From IMG/VR virus record IMGVR_UViG_3300046517_000281, positions 1 to 24,446 of that record: a stretch of 24,446 nucleotides of DNA; one strand, written 5' to 3'. Below the pieces are notes generated by a model that did no database searches, was not told where the DNA came from, and was given only the letters and a program-made list of their open reading frames with translations. Shown here in pieces: positions 5,138-22,025 of this stretch. Numbering within the stretch: position 1 is the first letter of the stretch; the number at the start of each line of letters is the position of its first letter. A program made the translations under genes and the position numbers. The DNA comes from a virus.

Positions 5138-5884
5138 CTATTGCGGGTCCGCTTTAATTTGTATCGGCACGGTCGACCAGCATCCGCCATCGTCAACAAA
5201 TATCGCATTGCCGCCATGCTTGATATGCGTATGGCTCGCGTCGACGCGCATTGATTTGTTATCGTCGTTGCCGAATTTGCAAAGAATTTTGTCCTTGTCG
5301 ATAAACACCTTATTGCCGCCGACGCCGATCTCGATTTGCGTCGGATGCGTGACGGTCCATGAGTCTTTTGTAAGCGTCAGGGACGCGAGCGCCTCTTGCC
5401 CGGCTTGCTTTCCCTGCCCGAGATTTTTTGCGTCGCCCTGGCCGGTGGTCGGCTTGGGCGCGTTCTCGCCTTTCATGATTTGCGAGACGATCTTTTTGCC
5501 GCTCGGCGCCGAGACGACAATGCCGTCGCGTGTGATGTGGACCTGGTGACCCTGGTCGTCGAATAGTGCGACCTCGCCCTCGGCCAAACCTTTGATCCGA
5601 TAGCGCCGATCGCCGACGACCAGCAAGGCGCCGTGCGAACGGTTGCCGCCGGTAAACACCATAACGGCTTCGGCCTTTTTTTGGTTAGGCTTCTGGCCGG
5701 TCGGTTTCTTGACGCGCGAGGTCAGGCCGTAGGGCTCAAAGTGCTCGATCTCTTTTTGCTTTTCTTGCGTGTAGAGCGATACTTCGTGCTCGCGAAAAAG
5801 CGGATCGTCATTGTTGCTTTCAATGGTCACGCGCTTAACCGCGTTATTCATGCGGTCGCCGACCGTGCGCGTGGAAAATCTCAT
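5138..5884 (-). CDS. Baseplate spike protein, Mu gp45-like
   Basis: This is a 248-residue protein in the position of the Mu membrane-piercing spike. It overlaps gpP by ATGA. The N-terminal half has an OB-like arrangement (residues 1-110) ending GDRRYRIKGLAEGEVALFDDQGHQVHITRDGIVV, the typical Mu gp45 'GEvalyDdqG..v.l...gi' phrase. The C-terminal part has beta-helix-like strands (TQIEIGVGGNKVFIDKDKI) and a SHTHIKHGG segment with His218-Thr-His220. Spike tips of P2 gpV and Mu gp45 carry an HxH motif that binds iron in the trimer, so His218 and His220 are good candidates; the residues 'HGG' follow. The linker at about 130-165 is polar and disordered-looking, longer than in Mu. Confidence 0.9.
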   Translation of the reverse strand: MRFSTRTVGDRMNNAVKRVTIESNNDDPLFREHEVSLYTQEKQKEIEHFEPYGLTSRVKKPTGQKPNQKKAEAVMVFTGGNRSHGALLVVGDRRYRIKGLAEGEVALFDDQGHQVHITRDGIVVSAPSGKKIVSQIMKGENAPKPTTGQGDAKNLGQGKQAGQEALASLTLTKDSWTVTHPTQIEIGVGGNKVFIDKDKILCKFGNDDNKSMRVDASHTHIKHGGNAIFVDDGGCWSTVPIQIKADPQ

Positions 5885-7035
5885 GGCGCTCCTTGTGATT
5901 CTTCCTCTTTCGGCATCGCCGGTTCGGGCGACGACGGCTCGGCGCTTTGGTCGGCGGCATCGCCTTTGCTGGTATCGTAATGATCGCGGCCGCCGAGCCG
6001 ATCTTGCAGGACCAGCGTCAAGGTCGAGGTGGTTCCGGTTTGGTCATTCTGGCGCGCGGTCACCGCTTGGATTCCGAGCGTGGCGCGATCGCTCGGCAAC
6101 AACATAGGCGAATAAAGGTCGATCAGGTTGCCGACCTCGTTGAGCCATAGCTTGCCGTTATTGCGGAGCCAACCGGCGACGGTCACGTTAGCCTGGAACA
6201 TGCTGGCCGCGTTGATATCGCCCATATGGTTTGCGTGCATTTGCGCGTCTTTGACGTCGCCCGGTTGCGGCGCCACCACACGCAACGGCGCCGGGACGTC
6301 GCCGCTATAGTTTTGGTTTTTTGCTTCCGCCGATTGCGCACGCGCCTTGTCCATATTGTGATCGTCATTCCCATGCTGGTCGGTGTCGGAAATGATGTTT
6401 GAAACGGCCGAGTTATTCGTCCAAATTAATTCCGCCGATAGGATGTTGCGGCCCTCTTGCAATTCGGCGACGACCTGGCCGCCGCCGCGGATGCCGACAA
6501 TATTGCCGAGCTCGTTGTCCATGATGTGAATGTTGCGCATTTGCGCCAGCCGCAAAATAAACTGAAACGGGCTTTCGCCCCAATGAACGCTAACGCGCTC
6601 GAAAACCTTGTCGGCGCCTTCGGGCGAGCCGCGCAACGAAAACGATATGCCGAACTTTTTTAACGCGGCGTTGGCGAGTTGCGTGAGCGTTTGATTCTTG
6701 AATTGCCCCGGCGGCAAGTCGAGCGAGCCCTTGACGATATCTTGCGGCTTTGAATGAACGATAATTTTTACGTTATGGTTTTGCCCGTCATAGACGACCT
6801 GGCGCACCGCCACCGCGCCGGTCGCCGCCAATTGGCCGGCGAGCGTAACCTTGGCCGGATCGCCCGGCTTGAGGCGCAACGAGCTCCATCCTTTATTGAG
6901 ATCTCCGACCTCGGCGACGACGAGCGAGCATTGACTAACCTCCTCGTTCATATCGCGAACGACCTCGACCTCCTTCCACCATTTGTAATTGGTGCCGCCG
7001 ACCTGGACGACGCAAATTTCTTGCGGGTTTGGCAT
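5881..7035 (-). CDS. Baseplate hub protein, Mu gpP (gp44)-like
   Basis: This is a 384-residue protein in the gpP position, the hub on which the spike sits. It starts with ATG 3 bp after the upstream stop. Family marks include a WKEVEVVRDMNEEVSQCSLVV opening, a LRLKPGDPAKVTLAG strand pair, a central FERVSVHWGESPFQFILRLAQMRNIHI block (residues about 145-172) typical of gp27/gpD/gpP hubs, and a later NGKLWLNEVGNLIDLYSPML segment that matches the gpP C-terminal domain. The C-terminus (about 350-384) is acidic and Pro/Ser-rich with no predicted fold. Length agrees with Mu gpP (about 380). Confidence 0.9.
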   Translation of the reverse strand: MPNPQEICVVQVGGTNYKWWKEVEVVRDMNEEVSQCSLVVAEVGDLNKGWSSLRLKPGDPAKVTLAGQLAATGAVAVRQVVYDGQNHNVKIIVHSKPQDIVKGSLDLPPGQFKNQTLTQLANAALKKFGISFSLRGSPEGADKVFERVSVHWGESPFQFILRLAQMRNIHIMDNELGNIVGIRGGGQVVAELQEGRNILSAELIWTNNSAVSNIISDTDQHGNDDHNMDKARAQSAEAKNQNYSGDVPAPLRVVAPQPGDVKDAQMHANHMGDINAASMFQANVTVAGWLRNNGKLWLNEVGNLIDLYSPMLLPSDRATLGIQAVTARQNDQTGTTSTLTLVLQDRLGGRDHYDTSKGDAADQSAEPSSPEPAMPKEEESQGAP

Positions 7036-7038
7036 GAC

Positions 7039-7710
7039 CTATTGCGACAACGCCCGAACCGGCATTTGCATAAAGGCCGGATGCACCGGGTTATTCTCGC
7101 CGACGAGCTCGACGGCGCGGGACTCGCCGCCGTAGAGCCGGTTGCAAAGCCAAAGCGCCGGCCGCGGCTTGGCAAAATTATAAACCACGATCGTCGGCAA
7201 CGTCCGCTCGCGCGTCGTGAGGTCGTAGGTCACCGCCGCATGGAGCGCGACCAGCGATTGATAACTCGCCTGGTCCTTGGAATTGCCGGCGAGCGACTCG
7301 GCATCATCAAACGCCGGATTCATGCGGTCGAGATAATCGTCGACTTGCGGCCGGCTGGCGAACTCGGTCAACGAAAGAATGCGCGCGCATTGGATCAAGC
7401 AAAGCCGGATGCAAGTGTTACCGACCGACCAGGCGGCAAAATAATTAACGACCATCGCCGCGGTATGCGCGCGAACAACGTCGAACGTATTGAAGGTAGC
7501 GCCGGCCTGGCGCGCCAGGTCGAATAGCTCGGCGAGCGGCGTCGCGATCGCGGCGTCCTCGATCAATTGCTCGGCGCCGGCGAGGAGATCGCCGCACGCC
7601 AGCCGAAACAATGAGCCGTCGCGGCCGGCGTTAACCGTTGCGTTGGCGATCAAATCGGCAATCACCGCCCGAACGACCTGGGTCGCTTGCTCGCGTTCGA
7701 GCGCGCGCAT
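7039..7710 (-). CDS. DNA-circulation protein C-terminal half (split Mu gpN)
   Basis: This is a 223-residue protein that matches the C-terminal half of Mu gpN-type DNA-circulation proteins, which form a ring at the tail-baseplate junction. Marks are a helical bundle over residues 1-110, an RERTLPTIVVYNFAKPRPALWLCNRLYGG segment and a terminal NNPVHPAFMQMP phrase; in Mu-type gpN the ending is similarly 'N...HPgF.p'. Its ATG directly follows the TAA of the N-terminal half and lies in the same reading frame, so the two look like one ancestral gene cut by a stop. The ribosome binding site is poor (GGCGG four bases off), which suggests reinitiation after the stop. I cannot exclude a sequencing error at the TAA. 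Confidence 0.8.
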   Translation of the reverse strand: MRALEREQATQVVRAVIADLIANATVNAGRDGSLFRLACGDLLAGAEQLIEDAAIATPLAELFDLARQAGATFNTFDVVRAHTAAMVVNYFAAWSVGNTCIRLCLIQCARILSLTEFASRPQVDDYLDRMNPAFDDAESLAGNSKDQASYQSLVALHAAVTYDLTTRERTLPTIVVYNFAKPRPALWLCNRLYGGESRAVELVGENNPVHPAFMQMPVRALSQ

Positions 7711-8325
7711 TTATCCGCCAAAACCGGCATCGCCGGCCGGGTTGCCGATTTCGGGATCGCCGATTGTGACCTCGCCGGTGCCGGTGCCGGGCGAGCCAGG
7801 ACCAAATACGGCGTCTTCGGAACCGCCGGCGCCGAAACTGTTGCCGCCGAGATCGGCATTTGAAGAATCGACGGCTTGCGCTTGCGCGTCATCGGCGGCG
7901 GCGTTGGCTTCCGATTGGCTCCCGATATCGCTGGTGAATCCGGTTTCGCCGGCCTCGACAAATTGCATCTCAAATTCGGCCATGCCGCCGGCCTGGCGCG
8001 TCTCGCGTACGGTGTATTCGCGCGGTTGCACGAGGATGGTGTCGCGTTGCAACAACGTCGGCAAAATCAGCAAGCCCGGCCCCTCGGCCTCTAGCGCCAG
8101 GACGAGGAGCTCGCGCCATATTTGATAGTCCGGCCCGATCACATAGCCGGTAACCGGAAAACGCCGCGCCGATCGGCCCATATCCTCGGCGTATGGAGTG
8201 TCGCGCTTGGGAAATTCGTGCAAGACGACGCGCCGGCCCGAGGTGCGCGAGTTGGCGTCGACATGAAACGGCGCCATGCGAAAGAACGCCGGGACCAACA
8301 TGCGACGCCAAAGCGGGATTGCCAT
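7711..8325 (-). CDS. DNA-circulation protein N-terminal half (Mu gpN, DNA_circ_N)
   Basis: This is a 204-residue protein with the DNA-circulation N-terminal domain over about residues 10-125. Marks are SGRRVVLHEFPKRDTPYAEDMGR near the start, GYVIGPDYQIWRELLVLALEAEGPGLLILP, and a VREYTVRETRQAGGMAEFEMQFVEAG end, all typical of this family. Residues 140-204 are Asp/Gly/Ala-rich and look disordered. Mu gpN is about 490 residues; here the protein stops at TAA and the rest is encoded by the directly abutting, in-frame downstream gene. Its own ATG directly follows the TAA of the second tape-measure-like gene. In the particle it is expected at the tail end by the baseplate; the DNA-circulation name is historic. 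Confidence 0.88.
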   Translation of the reverse strand: MAIPLWRRMLVPAFFRMAPFHVDANSRTSGRRVVLHEFPKRDTPYAEDMGRSARRFPVTGYVIGPDYQIWRELLVLALEAEGPGLLILPTLLQRDTILVQPREYTVRETRQAGGMAEFEMQFVEAGETGFTSDIGSQSEANAAADDAQAQAVDSSNADLGGNSFGAGGSEDAVFGPGSPGTGTGEVTIGDPEIGNPAGDAGFGG

Positions 8326-10593
8326 TTAAGCGCTTTCACTTGCGTATGGAATCGTGCTCCCGCGGTGCAATTGCACCTCGGAAAATATGCCGCTCGACGG
8401 GCCGGTCGTCCCCGAGGGCGCCTTGCCATAACCGGCGAGATCAATGCGGACGGATGCCGCGCCCTCGATCTTGGCGACCTGGCTTTGCCGCGCCGAGGCG
8501 TCCATCATGCGATCGCGTGGCACCGCCGGCGGCCGGGCCGCGGAAACATTATAGAGCGCGTCTTTCGGCATACCGCCGAGCCAGCGTTGCTTTGCACCAT
8601 AGTCAAATTGATTTTTATTTTCCGGTGTATAGGCGGCCTCTCTTAACCGTTCAGCCGGTGACGGTGCCGGTGGCGGCGTCCGCTCGTCGGGCTTGCCGGC
8701 CGTTGGCGGCGGCCGCGGCGTCGCGTCGGGTTTGCCGTCCGGCTTTGCCTGTTGTTTTTGTTGTTGTTGGCGCGCCTCGTATTCCTTGCGCGTCATGACC
8801 TCGGCGCGCCCGTTGCGGCCGATATGAATCATCAGCGGCCCTTTTTTGGATTCCTCCAAAAGCGCCTTTTTGAACGCCGGCCATTGCGCGCGCGGGACCG
8901 CAAAGCACCCCTCGGTGTACAATTGGTCGAGCGTGGCGCCCGACCCTGGATGAATTTGGATTCCGGCGCGCGGATGCCCTGGATATTTCGGATCGTTGAT
9001 AACGCCGCCGATGCCGCCGATCGAGGCGACCGAGCCGATGCGGTGCCCGACGCTGCCAATATTGCGATAGTCCTGGCCGAAATTGATCGGATAGTCGCCA
9101 TAAGGAAGCGAGCCGCGCCGCGCGCCGCCCGACTCCCAGGTAAACGATTTGCCGCCGACCGTGACCTTGCCGCCGATCCTATATGGCCGCTTCGATTGAT
9201 CCGGCTCGGCACCGCCGGCGCCGACGGATGCCTTGCTTCCCGGTTTGTCCTCGTCACCGCCATCGCCACCATCGCCGCCGGTCGAGCCGTCGCCGCGCGA
9301 GGCCGTTCGCCGTCGTCCGCCGCTCGAGCCGCCATCGCCACCGTTGCCGCCGAGCGAGGCGCGGATCACCGGCGCACCGCCGCCCGCTCCGTCGCCGCCG
9401 ACGCCGCCATGCGCGCCCGGTCCCTCGGCGCCCTGGTCGAGCGCCCATTTTTTGAGGCCCTCGACCACGCCCTCGGCGATCGTCTCTTTGGTTTTTTCCT
9501 CGTCGCCGCCGCCGACAAGCGAGGCGCGAATTACTTGCGCGCCGCCGAACGTGCCGGCGCCGTAGGACATTTTTTGCGGGCTCGCCGGCGCGGTTGCCGG
9601 CGGCGTTGCCGGCGCATTGCCGCCGCCGGCGCCCATGCGTTGCTTAAACGATTGCCACCACTCCTCCCAGGAGCCGCCCGGCAATTGCGGCGGCGTCAGT
9701 AAATTTTTGAGTGTGCCGTAGTATCCTTGGAACGTATCGACCGCCTTGATAAGCCTTGGGATAAGGTCGGCGATGGTATTGAGCGAGGCCGCCAGCTTGT
9801 CGAAGGTGCCTTGCTCGGCCATTTTTTCGGTGAGCTTTTCAAAGGAATTACCCATTCGCCAAAGCGAATGCTCAAAGCGTTCCGCCGCCGCCTCGTCCTC
9901 TTTGCTTGTGGCGCCGACGCTATCGCGCCATTCCTTGATAAGCCGCTCGCGTTCCTTGCGGTTGGCGTCGGCCAGGCCCGGCGGTAACCCGCGCGCCTTG
10001 AGGAAATCGCGCCGATGTTGCGGATCGTGCAACGTATCGAGCTTTTTAAGAATAAGGTCGAGCGCCTCGGCGTTTGTTTTGGTGCGGCGCAATTGCTCGC
10101 CAAACTCGCCTTGCCCGCGCAGCCGCAAGTCTTTCGCCGACTCGCCGATGTCGAGCCGCGTCTTGTGCATCTCGGCGGCAAAGTCGCGCCAACCCTGGCG
10201 CATTTCGCCGGCCGAGATTCCGAGGCGCCGGCCGACCGCCTCCATTTCGCGCATTTTGTCGATCGAGACGCCGGTTTCGCGGCTTAGGCGCGATAGCACC
10301 TCGGTCGTGCCGGCAAAACCCTTGAGCGCCGTAACCGCCGTCGCAATGGTGGCGCCGACGCCGACAAAACTAATACCGAGCGCGCGCAACGCCGGCACCA
10401 ATGTCACGTTGAGCGCGTTGCCGACTTGCGTCGCCGCGTCGCGCAAGCCGTCAAAATTCTTTTTAACTTTGGTGGCGCCGTCGCCGCCGCGGTCGCTGAT
10501 ACGGTCGAGCTCTTTCTTGAGGTCGTTGAGCGGTTTAGAAAACTTGTCGACGACCTCGACAACGACCTTGATTGCCTCGTCTTGCTCGGCCAT
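8326..10593 (-). CDS. Second tape-measure-like protein with L,D-transpeptidase-like domain
   Basis: This is a 755-residue protein, paralogous to the gene just upstream. Residues 1-300 align with it throughout; over residues 100-144, 37 of 45 are identical. A hydrophobic segment lies at about 60-96. Then come a Pro/Ala linker, two copies of an IRASL.GG phrase (around 354 and 410) flanking a GVVEGLKKWAL helix, a Gly/Asp tract (417-446), and a domain at about 475-600. That domain has PYGDYPIN, then IQIHPG with His548, then TEGCF with Thr560 and Cys563, the H...[S/T]xGC layout of L,D-transpeptidase (YkuD or Tlde1/DUF2778) enzymes. The C-terminus again matches the upstream paralogue. It starts directly after that gene's TAG with a GAGAGG site. 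The tape-measure role comes from position and homology; the enzymatic activity is inferred. Confidence 0.82.
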   Translation of the reverse strand: MAEQDEAIKVVVEVVDKFSKPLNDLKKELDRISDRGGDGATKVKKNFDGLRDAATQVGNALNVTLVPALRALGISFVGVGATIATAVTALKGFAGTTEVLSRLSRETGVSIDKMREMEAVGRRLGISAGEMRQGWRDFAAEMHKTRLDIGESAKDLRLRGQGEFGEQLRRTKTNAEALDLILKKLDTLHDPQHRRDFLKARGLPPGLADANRKERERLIKEWRDSVGATSKEDEAAAERFEHSLWRMGNSFEKLTEKMAEQGTFDKLAASLNTIADLIPRLIKAVDTFQGYYGTLKNLLTPPQLPGGSWEEWWQSFKQRMGAGGGNAPATPPATAPASPQKMSYGAGTFGGAQVIRASLVGGGDEEKTKETIAEGVVEGLKKWALDQGAEGPGAHGGVGGDGAGGGAPVIRASLGGNGGDGGSSGGRRRTASRGDGSTGGDGGDGGDEDKPGSKASVGAGGAEPDQSKRPYRIGGKVTVGGKSFTWESGGARRGSLPYGDYPINFGQDYRNIGSVGHRIGSVASIGGIGGVINDPKYPGHPRAGIQIHPGSGATLDQLYTEGCFAVPRAQWPAFKKALLEESKKGPLMIHIGRNGRAEVMTRKEYEARQQQQKQQAKPDGKPDATPRPPPTAGKPDERTPPPAPSPAERLREAAYTPENKNQFDYGAKQRWLGGMPKDALYNVSAARPPAVPRDRMMDASARQSQVAKIEGAASVRIDLAGYGKAPSGTTGPSSGIFSEVQLHRGSTIPYASESA

Positions 10594-12543
10594 CTAAACC
10601 CTCTCGGTCGCGAGCATGTTGCCGCGGTGCGTTTCGACGTCGCCGAATACGCCGCTCGCCTCGGTGCTCGTGCGCGTGCCGCGCGGGAAACCGTTGAGCG
10701 TGACGCGAAGCGAGGCCGCGCCCTCGGTGCGCGGCGCGCCGTCTCCGGTCGCCGCCGCTTCGCGCAACCGCTCGCGTGGCACCGGCGCCGGCGGCGGCGT
10801 TGGCGCCGGCTCGCTTTGCGGCGTGGCGCCCGCCGTCGGCGGCGTCCCGGTATAATCCTCGACGCCAGGCAAGCCCTTTTGATACTGGCGCGCGCGCTCG
10901 TTTTGGTGCCGTTGCGCGGGTTTAAGATACTCGCGCAAGAACGCAACCGCGGCGCCGGTACGGCCCGAGTGCTTGAGCTTTTCCCATAGTTTCGGATAGC
11001 CGGTTTTGAGCCGGTGAATCAAAAATTGCGTTTGCAAGCGCGGGTCTTGCCAGGACTCGCCGGGATGATTTTCGCGGAGCCAGCGCGCGTAATTATTCCA
11101 CTCGGTGCCGCCCTCTTGATAGAGGCCGTGCGCGAAATGCGGCTCGCCGGTGAATCCCGGTTGGTCGGGATGCCGCAAGGTCGGGTCGAAATTACTTTCC
11201 GAGCCGATATTTGCCAGGATGCCGGCGATCGCCTCGTCGGATAGGCCGCTCTTGCGGAGCTCGTCGACGACGACGGCGGCGACGCCGCGCCGGTTTTTCG
11301 GAATGTTGGCGCGCCCGCCTGGCGCCGGCTCGCTTTCGTTGTCGCCGCCGCCGGGACCGCCGCGGTTGCGACCGCTACCGCCGCCGAGCGAGGCGCGAAT
11401 AAGCGACGCGCCGCCGAACGAACCATCGCCGCCGCCGGTATCGAGCGCCATTTTTTTAAGGCCCTCGACCACGCCGGCGCTCGTGCCTTGCTTAATAATC
11501 TCTTTGGTTTTGTCGTCGCTTTGCGGCGTTGCCGCCGGATGCTCGGGCTCGCCGGCACGAAACCCCAAGCCATGCAATTGCTCCCAAATCGTGAGCGGCC
11601 GGCCCGGCGATTTCGGCGCCTGGCGCGGTTGTCCGATAATCTTGTCCGCGATCGAGCCCGGCCGAACCGTGATAAACGGCTTGTCGGCGAGCGTCTCATT
11701 GATCTTGTCGAGCGCGCCGACGGCCGACTCGAGCGACTTAACGACGCCGTCGAGCGTGCCGTCGCGCGCCATTTCTTTTGTGATTGCTTCCCAACGATTG
11801 CCGAGATTTTGCATTGAATCTTCAAAGCGTTTCGACGCCGCGATCGTGTCCTTTTTGGTAGCGCCAACCTCTTTGCGATATTCGGCGACGAGCGCCTCGC
11901 GTTGCGCGCGCGAGGCGTCGGCAAATTCGGGCGGGAAAAAATGCAATTGCAGAAAACGCCGGCGCTCGTCGGGATCGCGGATTTTGTCGAGCTCCGCAAA
12001 CATGATCTCAAGGGCGTCGCCCGTCGTCTTGGCGGCCTGGAGTCGGTTGGCGTATTCGTTAAGCCCGATGCCGCGCAAGCCGGTCAAGGTTTCGCTTTGC
12101 GTATGCGCGCGTATCTTGTGCATTTCCGCGGCAAAGTCGCGCCAGCTTTGCCGCATTTCGCCGGCGGTGGCGCCAAAGCGGCGGCCGACCGCCTCAAGCT
12201 CGCGCATCCGGTCGATTGTTAAGCCCGTCTCCCGGCTCAAGCGACTCAAGGTGTCGAGGTTGCCGGCAAAGCCGCGCAAGGCCGAGACGACGCCGAACAC
12301 CGCGGCGGCGATGCCGGCAAAGCCAAAGCCGAGCGAGCGAACCGCGGGGAGCAAGAGATTAACGCCGCTCCCGAGGCTTTGCGAAACCGTCCTCAAATTG
12401 TGGAAATGTTTGGTAAGTTTCTCGCCGTCGGGCGCCTTGTCCCCGACGGCGATCAAATGCTTCCGCATATCCTCAAGCGGCTTGGTAAACTTGTCGACGA
12501 CCTCGACGACGATCTTAACGACCTCGTCTTGCTCGTTCGCCAT
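10594..12543 (-). CDS. Tape-measure-like protein with tail-lysozyme domain
   Basis: This is a 649-residue protein in the tape-measure position, starting at the ATG that overlaps the TAA of the chaperone frameshift extension. The N-terminus (EVVDKFTKPLEDM) and a hydrophobic run at about 61-92 are followed by helical, charged sequence to about 290, then a disordered Pro/Gly-rich linker. Residues about 416-566 form a Phage_lysozyme2-type tail-lysozyme domain: GVAAVVVDELRKSGLSDEAI, the catalytic-type NIGSESNFDP with Glu449, HGLYQEGGTEW, and a C-terminal helix run. The C-terminal 45 residues (EGAASLRVTLNGFPRGTRT...SGVFGDVETHRG) have the shape of tape-measure C-termini. The lysozyme probably cuts peptidoglycan when the tail penetrates. 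Confidence 0.88.
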   Translation of the reverse strand: MANEQDEVVKIVVEVVDKFTKPLEDMRKHLIAVGDKAPDGEKLTKHFHNLRTVSQSLGSGVNLLLPAVRSLGFGFAGIAAAVFGVVSALRGFAGNLDTLSRLSRETGLTIDRMRELEAVGRRFGATAGEMRQSWRDFAAEMHKIRAHTQSETLTGLRGIGLNEYANRLQAAKTTGDALEIMFAELDKIRDPDERRRFLQLHFFPPEFADASRAQREALVAEYRKEVGATKKDTIAASKRFEDSMQNLGNRWEAITKEMARDGTLDGVVKSLESAVGALDKINETLADKPFITVRPGSIADKIIGQPRQAPKSPGRPLTIWEQLHGLGFRAGEPEHPAATPQSDDKTKEIIKQGTSAGVVEGLKKMALDTGGGDGSFGGASLIRASLGGGSGRNRGGPGGGDNESEPAPGGRANIPKNRRGVAAVVVDELRKSGLSDEAIAGILANIGSESNFDPTLRHPDQPGFTGEPHFAHGLYQEGGTEWNNYARWLRENHPGESWQDPRLQTQFLIHRLKTGYPKLWEKLKHSGRTGAAVAFLREYLKPAQRHQNERARQYQKGLPGVEDYTGTPPTAGATPQSEPAPTPPPAPVPRERLREAAATGDGAPRTEGAASLRVTLNGFPRGTRTSTEASGVFGDVETHRGNMLATERV

Positions 12544-13039
12544 TATTTTTTGTCCTTGAGCTCGATAAGCTCACGAATGAGATCGTGTATTTGCGACATG
12601 GGGAGATCGGCGAAAGCGAGCGGACTACAATGGAAATTGAGCGCTAGGCCGATGCAATCGCCGATCAAATCTTGCCCGGCACCGGCACGAAAAAAGGCGT
12701 AACGCCCCAGGCGCACGTTATAAAATCGCGCGTCGTGAGCGAGGCGATCGAGGACGGCGGCACGCCGGAAAGCGCCGATAACATTGCGTTCATGCGCTTT
12801 TCATCGTGCATGATTTTCGGCGGCTCCGAGATCGGATCAAAGATAACCGGGTTGCCGATGCTCAAGAGATCGCGCGCGGTCGGCTCGCGAAACACGAGCG
12901 TTGTCACGGTTTGACCGTGCGCCTCGATCGGGCGCGTGAGCTCGCAAGTATAGCCCGGCAATGGCGAGGCGGTTTCGGGCTCGGGTATCGGCGGCGCCGT
13001 TGCCTCGCGTTGCTTGATATCGGTGACGTTGACGGCCAT
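12543..13039 (-). CDS. Tail assembly chaperone, -1 frameshift fusion product
   Basis: Ribosomes that slip back one base at 12689-12695 would read 117 codons of the chaperone, then 48 more codons in the -1 frame (starting at base 12689, beginning RAGAGQDLIGDCIG), stopping at the TAA 12545-12543. The product is 165 residues. The extension has no good start of its own, is free of stops, contains an LNFHCSPLAFADLPMSQIHDL segment and ends in a charged helix (LIRELIELKDKK). Its TAA overlaps the tape-measure ATG by one base. Conserved frameshifts between the two tail chaperone frames are known in lambda, P2, Mu and many other phages, where the long and short forms wrap the tape measure. That this site is used here is inferred. 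Confidence 0.82.
12665..13039 (-). CDS. Tail assembly chaperone, short form (Mu gp41-like)
   Basis: This is a 124-residue protein directly after the tube gene, in the slot of Mu gp41 and P2 gpE. It starts at an ATG nine bases after an AAGGA site. The first 30 residues are Pro/Glu-rich and probably flexible. The core reads CELTRPIEAHGQTVTTLVFREPTARDL, then an RMNAMLSALSGVPPSSIASLTTRDF helix pair, the pattern of the phage tail assembly chaperone family (E/41/14). It is not part of the finished particle; it binds the tape measure during tail building. It ends at a TGA at 12667-12665, 22 bases past the slippery site, so most product should be this short form. Confidence 0.88.
   Translation of the reverse strand: MAVNVTDIKQREATAPPIPEPETASPLPGYTCELTRPIEAHGQTVTTLVFREPTARDLLSIGNPVIFDPISEPPKIMHDEKRMNAMLSALSGVPPSSIASLTTRDFITCAWGVTPFFVPVPGKI
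12689..12695 (-). promoter_or_regulatory. Slippery heptamer for -1 frameshifting (T TTT TTC)
   Basis: In the chaperone frame the codons read CCT TTT TTC GTG. The heptamer T TTT TTC is in the correct X XXY YYZ phase, so both tRNAs can re-pair after a one-base slip. This is the U UUU UUC class of slippery site. I did not identify a definite stimulatory stem downstream, although CGTGCCGGTGCCGGGCA is GC-rich. Confidence 0.8.
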
Positions 13040-13051
13040 GTTGTTTTTTCC

Positions 13052-13423
13052 TTATGCCGCGACCGCGACCTCGTCGCATTGCATACCCTCAAAGCGGACA
13101 TGGAATTGCCCGTCGCGGGTATTGACGGTTGAGCGTTCGGCGCGCCAGGCGTTGCGGAGATAGTAAACCGTACCGTTGGCGGCCTCGACCGTGATCGTCG
13201 CGTCGGTAATCGCGTCGATATCCTCGACGCTCGTACCTTCCAGCGTCGAGACGTCGCCGGCGACGTAAGGGACGACCGGCAATTCCGAATATCCATGCAC
13301 CGCGTCCTGGCCGGCGATTCCGGTCCTCTCATAACGTGACGGCATGACCTCAAGATTGCCACGCACGGCGAGTTGCCGGCCGTCGACGCTCCAATAGGCA
13401 ACGCCCGCGAATCTATTTGACAT
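13052..13423 (-). CDS. Tail tube protein (Mu gpM/gp40 family)
   Basis: This is a 123-residue protein right after the sheath, with a strong AAAGGAG seven bases before its ATG. It has the Mu-type tail tube pattern: N-terminal RFAGVAYWSVDGRQLAVRG, then YERTGIAGQDAVHGYSE, a GDVSTLEG strand, and AANGTVYYLRNAWRAER...VRFEGMQCDEV near the C-terminus. Subunits stack in hexameric rings to form the inner tube that is driven through the cell envelope. Length matches Mu gpM (about 118). The strong ribosome site fits a protein needed in high copy number. Confidence 0.92.
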   Translation of the reverse strand: MSNRFAGVAYWSVDGRQLAVRGNLEVMPSRYERTGIAGQDAVHGYSELPVVPYVAGDVSTLEGTSVEDIDAITDATITVEAANGTVYYLRNAWRAERSTVNTRDGQFHVRFEGMQCDEVAVAA

Positions 13424-13448: not shown

Positions 13449-14966
13449 TTAGGCCGCAAGCGCGAGCGGGAATTGCAAGCGGAATTGCGCGAGCACGGCA
13501 AACATTCTGAGTTGGTTGATAACGTCGCCGGGCCAAAGAACATTGACTCTGTTCGGATCGACGTCGTCGCGCTCGACGATCAACGCCGCCTTAAAGGCGG
13601 AGCCGTTTTCGACCAGGCCGTCGTATTCGCATTGGCGATATTCCGAGATCAATTCGCCCTTGAGAATGTTCGGAGTAACGATCGCCTGGCCGGGACCAAA
13701 ACGAGTCCCGTTGTCGGCAAGTTTCACGCGCGGATATTTATTGGTGATGCTTTGCCGCATCCGGCGGAAAAGCTCGGCCAGTGTCGCGAGCGTCGTCATG
13801 AGCTCGTAAGCATTGTCGGCTTGGCCGAGCGTGTTCTTTTGGTAGGTCGTTTGCTCACGCGCGAGCGCGGCAATCTCGCCGGCGTTGACCATTTGCACGG
13901 CCAGGCCGACGTTAGCGAGCGCGTTCAATTGCGTTTTATTAAAGCGCAAATGCTTCGGCGCCGGCGTGATCCCCTCAAGCGTCAAGGTTTGCAACGGGCG
14001 GGCCGGGTCGATCGAAAGAGCCCCCGCCGCGCGCGCGCAATAGGCGCCGATCCATTCATAGATCGGCGACGGCGAATCCGGCTCGATCGCCAGCAACGAA
14101 ACGACGCCGCTATTGTTGGTCGGGCCGTAGCTGAAAAGGTTGGCATAGGTGTCGCGCTTGGCCGAGATCACATGGCCGTAAACCTCGCGCAACCAACCCC
14201 AACGGCCGGAGTCGCTAAAGCCGTATTCGGTTTCCCAGGCAATGAGCGTGCCGCTATCGTTGAAACCGAGGCCGACGTATTCGTACGGCTCGTCGCCGAG
14301 GTTGGCGATCGCGGTCGTCCAGGTCGGGACGCCGACGCCGCTGGTCAGGTTGGCGCCGGTTGCCGGCGTGACGGTGAGGCCGATCGGCAACATTTCGCCG
14401 CCGTTCGGGCCGAGCACGTTATAGTCAAACGCGATATCGTTGCCGGTGATCCCCTTCCATTTGGCGGTGAGCGTGACGACCGCACCCGCGGCCGCCGCGG
14501 TGACCGGCAAATCGGGCATCGCCGTAATGGCCGCCGCGATGTTGGTCCCGATCGTCGCAATAACGTCGGTCGTTGCGACGCCGACCGATACCTTTTGGCC
14601 GGCGATATAAAGCGCGAGCTCGCCGGCTTGCGTCGCCGGTGTCGCGACCGTAATGGTGCCGGTTGCCGCGACGCCGGCCGCGGCTTGCGCGATCGGCAAG
14701 AGCAAAACGGGCGTCGACTTGTTGAGCAAGAAAAATTCCTGGTACATGCGCGCCAGCGGCGAGCCCTGGCCGGCGAGATTGATCGCGTCGGCGACCGAGC
14801 CGCACGCGATCGGGACGTCGACCGGCGCAACGCCGGCGGCGAGCTTGTAGTCGACAAGCAACGCATATTTTTGGCTTGTCGGCGTGCCGGCTTGGCTCGG
14901 GTCCACTTCAATGTAAACGAGCGGAAGCTTCCACCCCGACGGTATGGAATTAAACGAGATCGGCAT
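13449..14966 (-). CDS. Tail sheath protein (Mu gpL/gp39 family)
   Basis: This is a 505-residue contractile sheath protein, close to the 495 residues of Mu gpL. It starts with ISFNSIPSGWKLPLVYIEVDPSQA, the characteristic opening in which a residue pair 'IP...P..YvEid.s.A' appears. It ends with a conserved sheath-type C-terminal domain (ERDDVDPNRVNVLWPGDVINQLRMFAVLAQFRLQ). The central part carries Ala/Thr/Gly-rich strands. Sheath subunits surround the tube and contract to drive it into the cell. Its ATG has an AGGGAG site 7 bases upstream, and a terminator-like hairpin lies just before it. The sheath proves that the tail is contractile. Confidence 0.95.
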   Translation of the reverse strand: MPISFNSIPSGWKLPLVYIEVDPSQAGTPTSQKYALLVDYKLAAGVAPVDVPIACGSVADAINLAGQGSPLARMYQEFFLLNKSTPVLLLPIAQAAAGVAATGTITVATPATQAGELALYIAGQKVSVGVATTDVIATIGTNIAAAITAMPDLPVTAAAAGAVVTLTAKWKGITGNDIAFDYNVLGPNGGEMLPIGLTVTPATGANLTSGVGVPTWTTAIANLGDEPYEYVGLGFNDSGTLIAWETEYGFSDSGRWGWLREVYGHVISAKRDTYANLFSYGPTNNSGVVSLLAIEPDSPSPIYEWIGAYCARAAGALSIDPARPLQTLTLEGITPAPKHLRFNKTQLNALANVGLAVQMVNAGEIAALAREQTTYQKNTLGQADNAYELMTTLATLAELFRRMRQSITNKYPRVKLADNGTRFGPGQAIVTPNILKGELISEYRQCEYDGLVENGSAFKAALIVERDDVDPNRVNVLWPGDVINQLRMFAVLAQFRLQFPLALAA

Positions 14967-19928: not shown

Positions 19929-22025
19929 CTACCAGGTAACGCCCGCGACCCAAGCAACGGTCCCGGCGCGGCGGATCGTCCAATTGATCGGCATAATCAA
20001 CCGCAAAGCCATCGAGTCGGTTTGGAACATACTCTTTGCGGGATAGGCGACGACCGCCGGCGTTCCCGCCGTCGAGATATCGGTCGGCGTCGTATCCTCC
20101 ATGTGCAAGGTCGCCTGGTCCGAGATTTCAAACCGCGGCCCGTCGCCGGTGACCGAAACGAAATCGGCGGCGTCGATCGCGATAACCGTCCCGGCCGGCA
20201 CGGTGCCGGATTGGATGATCGGCCAACCGCCGAGGCGGCCTTGGCTTATTTCATCGCGGAACGGGAACACGCCGGCCCCGGTTGCGATCGCCAGGCCCGC
20301 GCTATTGACCTGTTGCGGGTTCATGAGCCATCGCGGATTGCGGACGTTGCCGAGCGTGCCAGTGAGCAAGGCGCCCGACAATTGCTTGATATCGCCGGTG
20401 AGCGCGTTAAAGCCGCCGCCGGCGGTTGGGGTTAAGCCGGAAACGCCGTTGAGGATGCCGGCCGGCCGTACCGTCGTCGCCGCGTTGGTATCCAGCAAGA
20501 TAGCGTCGAGCGCGACGCCGGTATCGTATTGGATCGCATCGCGCAACAATCCCTGGATCGCCGGGACCGAATGCTCGTCGATCTCCCGCGTCCAGGTGGT
20601 GATAACCGCCATTTTTTTCGGCGTGAGGCTTTGCGAAGTGAAAGCGCCCTGGCGTACCGGGATCGGCAAGCCCTCGCCGACGAATGAGCCGGCGATCGTT
20701 GGCGTCCGCGACCTGGTCGGGATGATGATTTTCCCGTTGCGCCCGAACGTGAGCGACAAGCCGGCCGCCGACAATGGTGCAAAGATTGATTGCACCTGGA
20801 GCAATTGCATAAAGTCGACGACGATTTGTTGCACGAGCTCGGCCGCCCAACCGACCGTTGTCGTCGTTGCCATTGTGCTCGCGGCCTTGGTTTGCCATTC
20901 CGTAACCGCCCTGGTCGCCTCGTCGTCGCCAAAGATTTGACGGCGAATCTCGTCGACCGGCTTGCGCTCGCGTTGCGCCAGGATCATTGCGGTGCCGGCG
21001 CGCAAGAACAATTCGATCGGATCGACCTTTTTCGGCCCCAGGCTAAACGGCCGCGCTTGTGCGGTCATATGGCCGGCCGCCTTGGCCGCCGGGACGACGG
21101 CGCGGGCGCCGCCGTCGGATTGTTCGCCGAGATTTTTCTCGGAATCGCGCAACGTGGCTAGAACCTTTTGCTCGTGTGCGACCTCGGCATTGGCTTTGCC
21201 GATCGTTTCCATATCGGCGTCGGTATAGTTGCCGTCGCCTTTAGCGTCATGGAAGGCGGCGAGCTCGTCCTTTTTCGCGAGCAACCGCTTTTCCGCTTCG
21301 ATAATATTTTGAGCAAGCGTTGACATGGGTTTTGTCTTTCCAGGTGGAGAGGTTTCGGCTTGCTTGCCAATGTGCCGGCGCGCGGGCGCGGTGTTTTGTT
21401 TGCCGTGCTTGGCAAACACCATGCGGAGCGTGTCGGCGGAAATCTTTAAGCCCTTTGCGAGCGCGAGCGCGTTCGGATTGGCCGGGATCGAGACGAGGCT
21501 ACACTCGACCAATTCTTGCTTGAGGTATTTGAACGGGCCGAAATACTTGTCGGCCTTGTCGTCGATCGGCCGCTTGTCGATCGGCGAAAAGCCGACGCTA
21601 ACGGCCTTGAGGATGCCTTGCTCGACCAGGCTCCGAATCTCGTTAATGCGGTCGCTCGTCCCTTGCTTGGCAAGGACAAGGCGGCCGCGCAACGCGCCGC
21701 CCTCGACGCGGACGTTATGCCACTCGCCAATTACAAAATCGCTTTTATGATTGAATAGCGCGGGCGCGTGTTTGTCGAAATTGCCAAGGTCCCAACCGGC
21801 GAGCGAAATCACCTCGCCCATGCGGTCGACCGTTTCGTCGCTCATGGTAAAATCGAGGCCGTCGGCTTTTGAAACGTGAGTCTTGTGGACTATGCGCGCG
21901 CCGCTCTTTTCGTCTTGCGCGTCGTCCCAAGCGGTTTGACAAGCATCCTCGTCGTTGTCGTCGGTACAACGGTCCATGAAATCCATATAATTTTCGTCGT
22001 CATCCGGCTGGTCGATTTCGGGCAT
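19929..22025 (-). CDS. Prohead protease-major capsid protein fusion, HK97 type
   Basis: This is a 698-residue polyprotein. Residues 1-40 are very acidic (DFMDRCTDDNDEDACQTAWDD). Residues about 42-200 form the HK97/U35 prohead protease: FNHKSDFVIGEW with His93, LKAVSVGFSPI with Ser143, ELVECSLVSIPANPNAL. Residues 234-310 are a coiled-coil scaffold (delta) domain beginning MSTLAQNIIEAEKRLLAKKDEL. Residues about 340-698 form the HK97-fold capsid protein, with GEGLPIPVRQGAFTSQSLTPKKMAVI, WLMNPQQVNS and GGWPIIQSGTVPAGTVIAID as marks. Most phages encode the protease and capsid separately; fusions are known. Residue 234 is an ATG with GGAAAG 11 bases upstream, so capsid alone might also be made. GGAG ten bases before 22025 supports the main start. 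Confidence 0.92.
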   Translation of the reverse strand: MPEIDQPDDDENYMDFMDRCTDDNDEDACQTAWDDAQDEKSGARIVHKTHVSKADGLDFTMSDETVDRMGEVISLAGWDLGNFDKHAPALFNHKSDFVIGEWHNVRVEGGALRGRLVLAKQGTSDRINEIRSLVEQGILKAVSVGFSPIDKRPIDDKADKYFGPFKYLKQELVECSLVSIPANPNALALAKGLKISADTLRMVFAKHGKQNTAPARRHIGKQAETSPPGKTKPMSTLAQNIIEAEKRLLAKKDELAAFHDAKGDGNYTDADMETIGKANAEVAHEQKVLATLRDSEKNLGEQSDGGARAVVPAAKAAGHMTAQARPFSLGPKKVDPIELFLRAGTAMILAQRERKPVDEIRRQIFGDDEATRAVTEWQTKAASTMATTTTVGWAAELVQQIVVDFMQLLQVQSIFAPLSAAGLSLTFGRNGKIIIPTRSRTPTIAGSFVGEGLPIPVRQGAFTSQSLTPKKMAVITTWTREIDEHSVPAIQGLLRDAIQYDTGVALDAILLDTNAATTVRPAGILNGVSGLTPTAGGGFNALTGDIKQLSGALLTGTLGNVRNPRWLMNPQQVNSAGLAIATGAGVFPFRDEISQGRLGGWPIIQSGTVPAGTVIAIDAADFVSVTGDGPRFEISDQATLHMEDTTPTDISTAGTPAVVAYPAKSMFQTDSMALRLIMPINWTIRRAGTVAWVAGVTW

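Follow-up and report, generated by a model that had tools for sequence, protein, structure and literature searches.

Tape-measure proteins (TMPs) are oligomers that occupy the lumen of the phage tail, and they are usually treated as homo-oligomers of the product of a single gene. Several of them deliver a peptidoglycan hydrolase: the TMP of the mycobacteriophage TM4, pb2 of T5 and gp95 of phiCbK, which has a CHAP domain, are each the product of one TMP gene and provide one activity (PMC3556154, PMC5380687). CwlP (YomI) of the Bacillus subtilis prophage SP-beta, probably located in the tail, combines a muramidase with a crosslink-cleaving endopeptidase, but it is one 252 kDa polypeptide of a siphophage with a Gram-positive host, and the account of it there describes no paralogous second gene (PMC5380687). 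The staphylococcal phage proteins phi11 gp49, phiMR11 gp61 and HydH5 likewise place a lysozyme and an amidase on one virion, but with both domains on one non-TMP protein (PMC5380687). The papers that speak of two tape measures deal with chaperones (PMC8407745, PMC5028729, PMC3556154) or contain a mass-spectrometry list (PMC3447690), and our literature search found no description of tandem paralogous TMPs with partitioned cargo. Precedents thus exist for a TMP that has a single wall enzyme and for a tail protein that combines two.

The window analysed here, i.e. the whole of the 24,446-base IMG/VR record IMGVR_UViG_3300046517_000281 from a metagenome-derived virus, has on its minus strand a Mu-type contractile-tail module with the gene order: sheath, tube, Phage_TAC_7 chaperone, two TMP-like genes, a DNA_circ_N/hub gene (two ORFs) and a gpP-like hub. 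The two adjacent TMP genes encode predicted wall-active domains of two types. The relevant features are:

13449..14966, minus strand: tail sheath of the contractile tail (phrog_165, 9e-152)
13052..13423, minus strand: tail tube (PF10618, 2.2e-35)
12665..13039, minus strand: tail assembly chaperone Phage_TAC_7, with no other chaperone upstream of the two TMPs (PF10109, E 1.1e-13)
12689..12695, minus strand: -1 frameshift heptamer T_TTT_TTC, read from the sequence (TTTTTTC-type run in relatives checked)
10594..12543, minus strand: TMP1, slot-1 tape-measure paralogue, 649 aa (ORF; PHROG tape measure families, e.g. phrog_9570, 8.9e-15)
11689..12543, minus strand: TMP1 N-terminal paralogous domain, residues 1-285 (alignment with the TMP2 N domain)
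10885..11277, minus strand: TMP1 cargo, Phage_lysozyme2, residues 423-553, with Glu449 inside (PF18013, E 9.1e-20)
10597..10791, minus strand: TMP1 C-terminal tail, residues 585-649 (homology to the TMP2 tail; groups with clade B slot-1 tails)
8326..10593, minus strand: TMP2, slot-2 tape-measure paralogue, 755 aa (ORF; PHROG tape measure families, e.g. phrog_2276, 1.7e-10)
9739..10593, minus strand: TMP2 N-terminal paralogous domain, residues 1-285 (alignment with the TMP1 N domain)
8758..9198, minus strand: TMP2 cargo, predicted L,D-transpeptidase (LDT) fold, residues 466-612 (AlphaFold2 pLDDT 84.8, pTM 0.83; top 23 structural alignments LDT-fold)
8950..8952, minus strand: codon of His548, putative catalytic base of the LDT-like domain (invariant in 19 domains)
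8905..8907, minus strand: codon of Cys563, putative nucleophile of the LDT-like domain (invariant in 19 domains)
8329..8529, minus strand: TMP2 C-terminal tail, residues 689-755 (homology to the TMP1 tail)
7711..8325, minus strand: DNA circularisation/hub protein, N part (PF07157, 1.5e-23)
5881..7035, minus strand: Mu gpP-like baseplate hub (PF22255, 1.6e-11; PF21683, 1.4e-8)

We interpret this locus, at a probability of about 0.6, as a duplicated tape measure whose copies divide complementary wall-cutting activities and are probably co-assembled in one tail, the co-assembly being what we infer from the comparisons below. Both proteins match annotated TMP families (phrog_2276, 8125, 2013 and 9570; E 1e-7 to 1e-15), and both genes lie where tape measures are expected, after the tube and the frameshifting chaperone and before the hub/DNA_circ gene. 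The TMP genes abut (TAG, then ATG) with an SD-like GAGAGG upstream, and the -1 frameshift yields a longer chaperone, of about 165 residues, whose stop overlaps the start of TMP1. As an observation in its own right, two tape measures are here served by one frameshifting chaperone (12543-13039).

The initial annotation had described two tandem genes, recovered here as minus-strand ORFs at 10594-12543 and 8326-10593, and had called the second a full-length paralogue of the first. This description holds for about 390 residues at the N-terminus and for the C-terminal tail, and fails for the central domains, which are unrelated. By BLASTP the N-terminal portions have 41% identity across 399 aa (E 9e-84) and the C-termini, also said to match, give a separate 62-aa alignment (40%, E 1e-9): at the level of sequence the likeness is far above chance. 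On recounting, residues 99-143 of TMP1 and 100-144 of TMP2 indeed share 37 of 45 positions. This block is conserved family-wide, so constraint suffices to explain it, and we dropped recent gene conversion as its cause.

The central domain of TMP1 is a lysozyme that passes the curated cut-off of PF18013 (71.7 bits against 28.2), and Glu449, singled out earlier, sits within the match. For TMP2, the cargo has no significant Pfam match, with neither YkuD nor DUF2778 at E 1 or better; more generally, sequence searches of Pfam, NCBIfam and PDB did not identify the LDT, SleB-like and M15-like cargoes of this family. We modelled the TMP2 domain with AlphaFold2 from an alignment of 19 homologous LDT-like domains. 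A Foldseek comparison of the model with PDB was weak, the best match being 7o21, an LDT-fold protein, at E 0.71; on structural re-alignment, ranks 1-23 were all LDT-fold enzymes (Z 6.9-4.2), unrelated entries appearing from Z 3.5 down. Among the top matches are Pgp2 (Z 6.9), Tlde1a (Z 6.6, 106 residues), DpaA, Bd1075 and LdtMt1/2. The TMP2 cargo is thus predicted, with moderate confidence, to adopt the L,D-transpeptidase fold: since no Z value reaches 8, the case is made by the uniform list together with the invariant His and Cys. H548 and T560-E-G-C563, pointed out before, are present with the numbering given, and the H548 and C563 equivalents are invariant in all 19 sequences within a motif H-X11-(T/S)-x-G-C. 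The fold and these two residues are common to Tlde1a and the YkuD-type L,D-transpeptidases (PMC9638812); the TMP2 motif, however, departs from their H-X14-17-(S/T)HGC (PMC9638812), and it lies inside a tape measure, whereas theirs is a secreted enzyme. The second His of (S/T)HGC is replaced by E, Q, A, K or L, which makes the specificity of the LDT-like domain uncertain; by analogy we take it to be peptide-active. Both domain assignments of the initial annotation are thereby borne out, the lysozyme by Pfam and the LDT fold by model and structural alignment. Its reading of two paralogous TMPs with different wall-active domains likewise stands; that a hetero-oligomer delivers both activities is the part that we hold conditionally.

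The pair is not peculiar to the window: it recurs in further lineages (see below), and at least 10 other IMG/VR datasets have contigs, a few of them nearly the same as one another, that keep the lysozyme-LDT tandem in the same order. Across the N domain, cargo and tail of both genes dN/dS is mostly 0.15-0.35 (range about 0.1-0.5): TMP1 and TMP2 are both under purifying selection, and by the same measure no relaxed selection was seen in the N domain of either copy. A recent, functionally neutral duplication or an assembly artefact might come to mind, as tandem duplication is common in phages and the record is metagenome-derived. Such an origin is hardly credible for a pair of only 41% identity with non-homologous cargoes, kept on contigs from many datasets at these dN/dS values and recurring in other lineages, including a Bradyrhizobium genome; we set it aside on conservation across contigs and selection.

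We found TMPs paired in tandem in nine or more N-domain lineages, among them a prophage of Bradyrhizobium sp. SRL28 (L085; L numbers are our handles). We sorted the cargoes into a glycan-active class (PF18013 lysozyme, SleB-fold, SLT-like) and a peptide-active class (LDT, M15-like, CHAP, amidase). In order of first and second gene the pairs are: lysozyme and LDT in clade A, that of the window; LDT and lysozyme, LDT and SleB-fold, or M15-like and SleB-fold in clade B (L031, L038-L044); LDT and lysozyme in L079; M15-like and lysozyme in L138; SLT-like and Amidase_2 in L123; SLT-like and M15-like in L085; SleB and CHAP in clade C (L170-L177); CHAP and SleB in clade D (L136, L147, L236-L244); and M15-like and SleB in L180. 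Hence, in all nine N-domain lineages with both cargoes typed, one is glycan-active and the other peptide-active, in either gene order. The rule was set on clades A and B, L079, L085, L123, L136/L147 and L138; L170-L177, L236-L244 and L180, found afterwards by profile scans with SleB-like and M15-like cargoes, obey it. With classes assigned unblinded, we estimate the chance of nine out of nine under independent equal-chance draws at about 0.002; when A/B and C/D are each taken as one lineage, it becomes 0.008.

The typing is of uneven strength. Pfam provided PF18013, Amidase_2 (2.6e-7), CHAP (1.8e-5), Phage_lysozyme (2.5e-15), Glucosaminidase (3.8e-8) and M15_4 (6.5e-4); homology chains were used for CHAP, M15 and SLT cargoes; PDB profiles added weak matches to SLT/lytic transglycosylases (E 0.045-0.16) and to the Ply500 M15 peptidase (E 0.14). 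The M15-like cargo of L180 was typed by a His/Asp motif read from the sequence, and the SleB cargo by fold: its model, of pLDDT just 62.7, aligns with 4fet at Z 8.3 over 88 residues, the next match being at Z 2.0. The M15, SLT and SleB assignments are thus drawn from weak profile matches, homology chains or fold. Foldseek alone was weak for both cargo models, and a BFVD search with the models yielded nothing useful; beta-propeller matches of the M15-like domain in phmmer look like repeat matches and were discarded. Four pairs depart from the simple split: the second copy is DPBB/RlpA-like in L075, L235 and L257 and has no recognised enzyme in L217, while the other copy is bifunctional in L075, L257 and L217. 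L235 may have two glycan-active copies. The coordinates of these pairs are L217:4228-9845, L257:3358-9134, L075:3351-8999 and L235:1866-7455.

A survey of viral contigs and genomes based on the sheath found single TMPs in most of them, and all 16 further isolate prophage regions, from 397 genomes of the order of the Bradyrhizobium host, have a single TMP and no tandem pair; the paired form is thus a minority but recurrent one. L064, L066 and L069/L070, whose sheaths are 83-88% identical to that of the window, have a single TMP with an LDT cargo only, so the second TMP is dispensable over evolution. On the N-domain tree eight changes between pair and single are needed, of which well-supported branches impose at least four; the pair of Bradyrhizobium is nested among singles. 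Other single TMPs have both kinds of cargo in one chain (L080, L077, L078, L135, L145, L223, L201, L204, L253 and others): lysozyme and LDT in L080, LDT and SleB in L077, CHAP and SleB in L223, SleB and M15 in L201, SLT and M15 in L253, and lysozyme and CHAP in L145. This frequent fusion of the glycan and peptide classes links the two activities to one tail. A candidate relative, L035, was rejected as a podovirus-like internal protein with the lysozyme domain alone in common. Separately, L182 (2036-6889) and L184 (3214-8067) each have one tape measure only, a protein of 1,618 aa in which three wall cargoes are predicted, namely an M15-like, a SleB-like and an LDT domain.

That a tail needs one ruler, as the single-TMP relatives show, raises the alternative that only one copy measures, the other being a TMP-derived passenger or a baseplate-hub enzyme that uses its N domain to enter the initiator complex. 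The pairs L075, L217 and L257, in which a bifunctional copy accompanies a second copy with other or no recognised cargo, would fit it; but within a pair the N domains resemble each other in both length and sequence and are kept alike, and neither shows relaxed selection (see above), which leaves this alternative improbable.

A co-assembled pair also accords with how the ruler halves have evolved. In most pairs the N domain of each copy has its nearest relative in the other copy, and the cargoes are unrelated. In clade B this sisterhood is fully supported (100/100), and orthology of N domains by slot or by cargo between clades A and B is rejected by the AU test (p 4e-6 and 7.5e-4); in larger quick trees, TMP1 and TMP2 of the window are not direct sisters with support. 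The C-terminal tails of clades A and B group by slot and not by cargo, with moderate support (86/85), the alternatives to slot orthology not being rejected (p 0.12-0.33). Clades C and D have the same SleB and CHAP cargo families in opposite gene order: their N domains group within each phage clade (AU p below 1e-31) and their tails group weakly by cargo. The signature common to these trees is that N domains evolve in concert and cargo is exchangeable; it may stem from a separate duplication in each clade and not from homogenisation of an old pair.

Two tail populations could be envisaged instead, each tail having a homotypic oligomer and hence one of the two enzymes, the lysozyme in some virions and the LDT-like one in others, by which the phage would hedge its bets across hosts or growth states. 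The paralogues do differ in length (649 against 755 aa) and in their C-tails, and the LDT-only single-TMP relatives attest that a tail with one cargo can persist in evolution. We consider this unlikely: wherever a lineage was typed the cargoes are complementary, and not alternative, the two activities are fused within a single TMP in many relatives, the similarity of N domains within a phage fits co-packing better, and the abutting genes are provided with one chaperone.

In the co-assembled pair that we favour, TMP1 and TMP2 would be made together and form a mixed oligomer inside the lumen of one contractile tail, which their common ruler half, hub-facing tail and single chaperone could allow. 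The C-terminal tails of both would sit at the hub, for which the TMP gp41 of Pseudomonas phage Pa193, with a trimer of C-termini anchored at the hub and tail tip, is a precedent, though as a homotrimer from one gene (PMC11042391); the SPP1 TMP has also been termed possibly trimeric (PMC8718954). Contraction would eject both TMPs together into a wall perhaps rich in LD-crosslinks, where one would open the glycan strands while stem peptides or crosslinks are opened by the other. A bolder version is plausible though tentative: many Mu-like phages, at least some of them with alphaproteobacterial hosts, would have an obligate hetero-oligomeric two-slot ruler with co-evolving N halves and always a glycan and a peptide cargo, whose synchronous double cut possibly answers LD-crosslinks. 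If true, a paired, cargo-partitioned tape measure would change models of tail assembly and of length control, and nature would offer in it a modular means of sending two enzymes through the same contractile tail.

Relatives of the pair were sought among plasmids and none was found; in the INPHARED phage collection neither TMP2 nor the second TMPs of L085 and L138 have a relative, and TMP1 has only weak lysozyme-domain matches. The related prophages in named genomes are from Hyphomicrobiales: Chelatococcus, Methylobacterium and Bradyrhizobium. The walls of this order abound in LD-crosslinks, which make up about 30% of crosslinks in Agrobacterium (PMC11527210), and lytic transglycosylases, phage ones included, are inhibited by them (PMC11390936). 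In such LD-rich walls a peptide-active partner for a glycan-cutter makes sense; we infer this link to the paired cargo from the hosts of relatives. The paired tape measure would also allow a test of whether LD-crosslinks, by inhibiting those enzymes, make such a partner necessary to phages of Hyphomicrobiales.

Two further features of the window concern neighbouring modules. The Mu gpN/DNA circularisation hub gene is present as two ORFs, an N part and a C part (7039-8325), and the closest relatives are split alike. The head is HK97-like, with a portal and a capsid joined to an S78 protease: the Prohead S78 protease and HK97-type capsid form a single 698-aa ORF (19929-22025), alongside the Mu-type tail.
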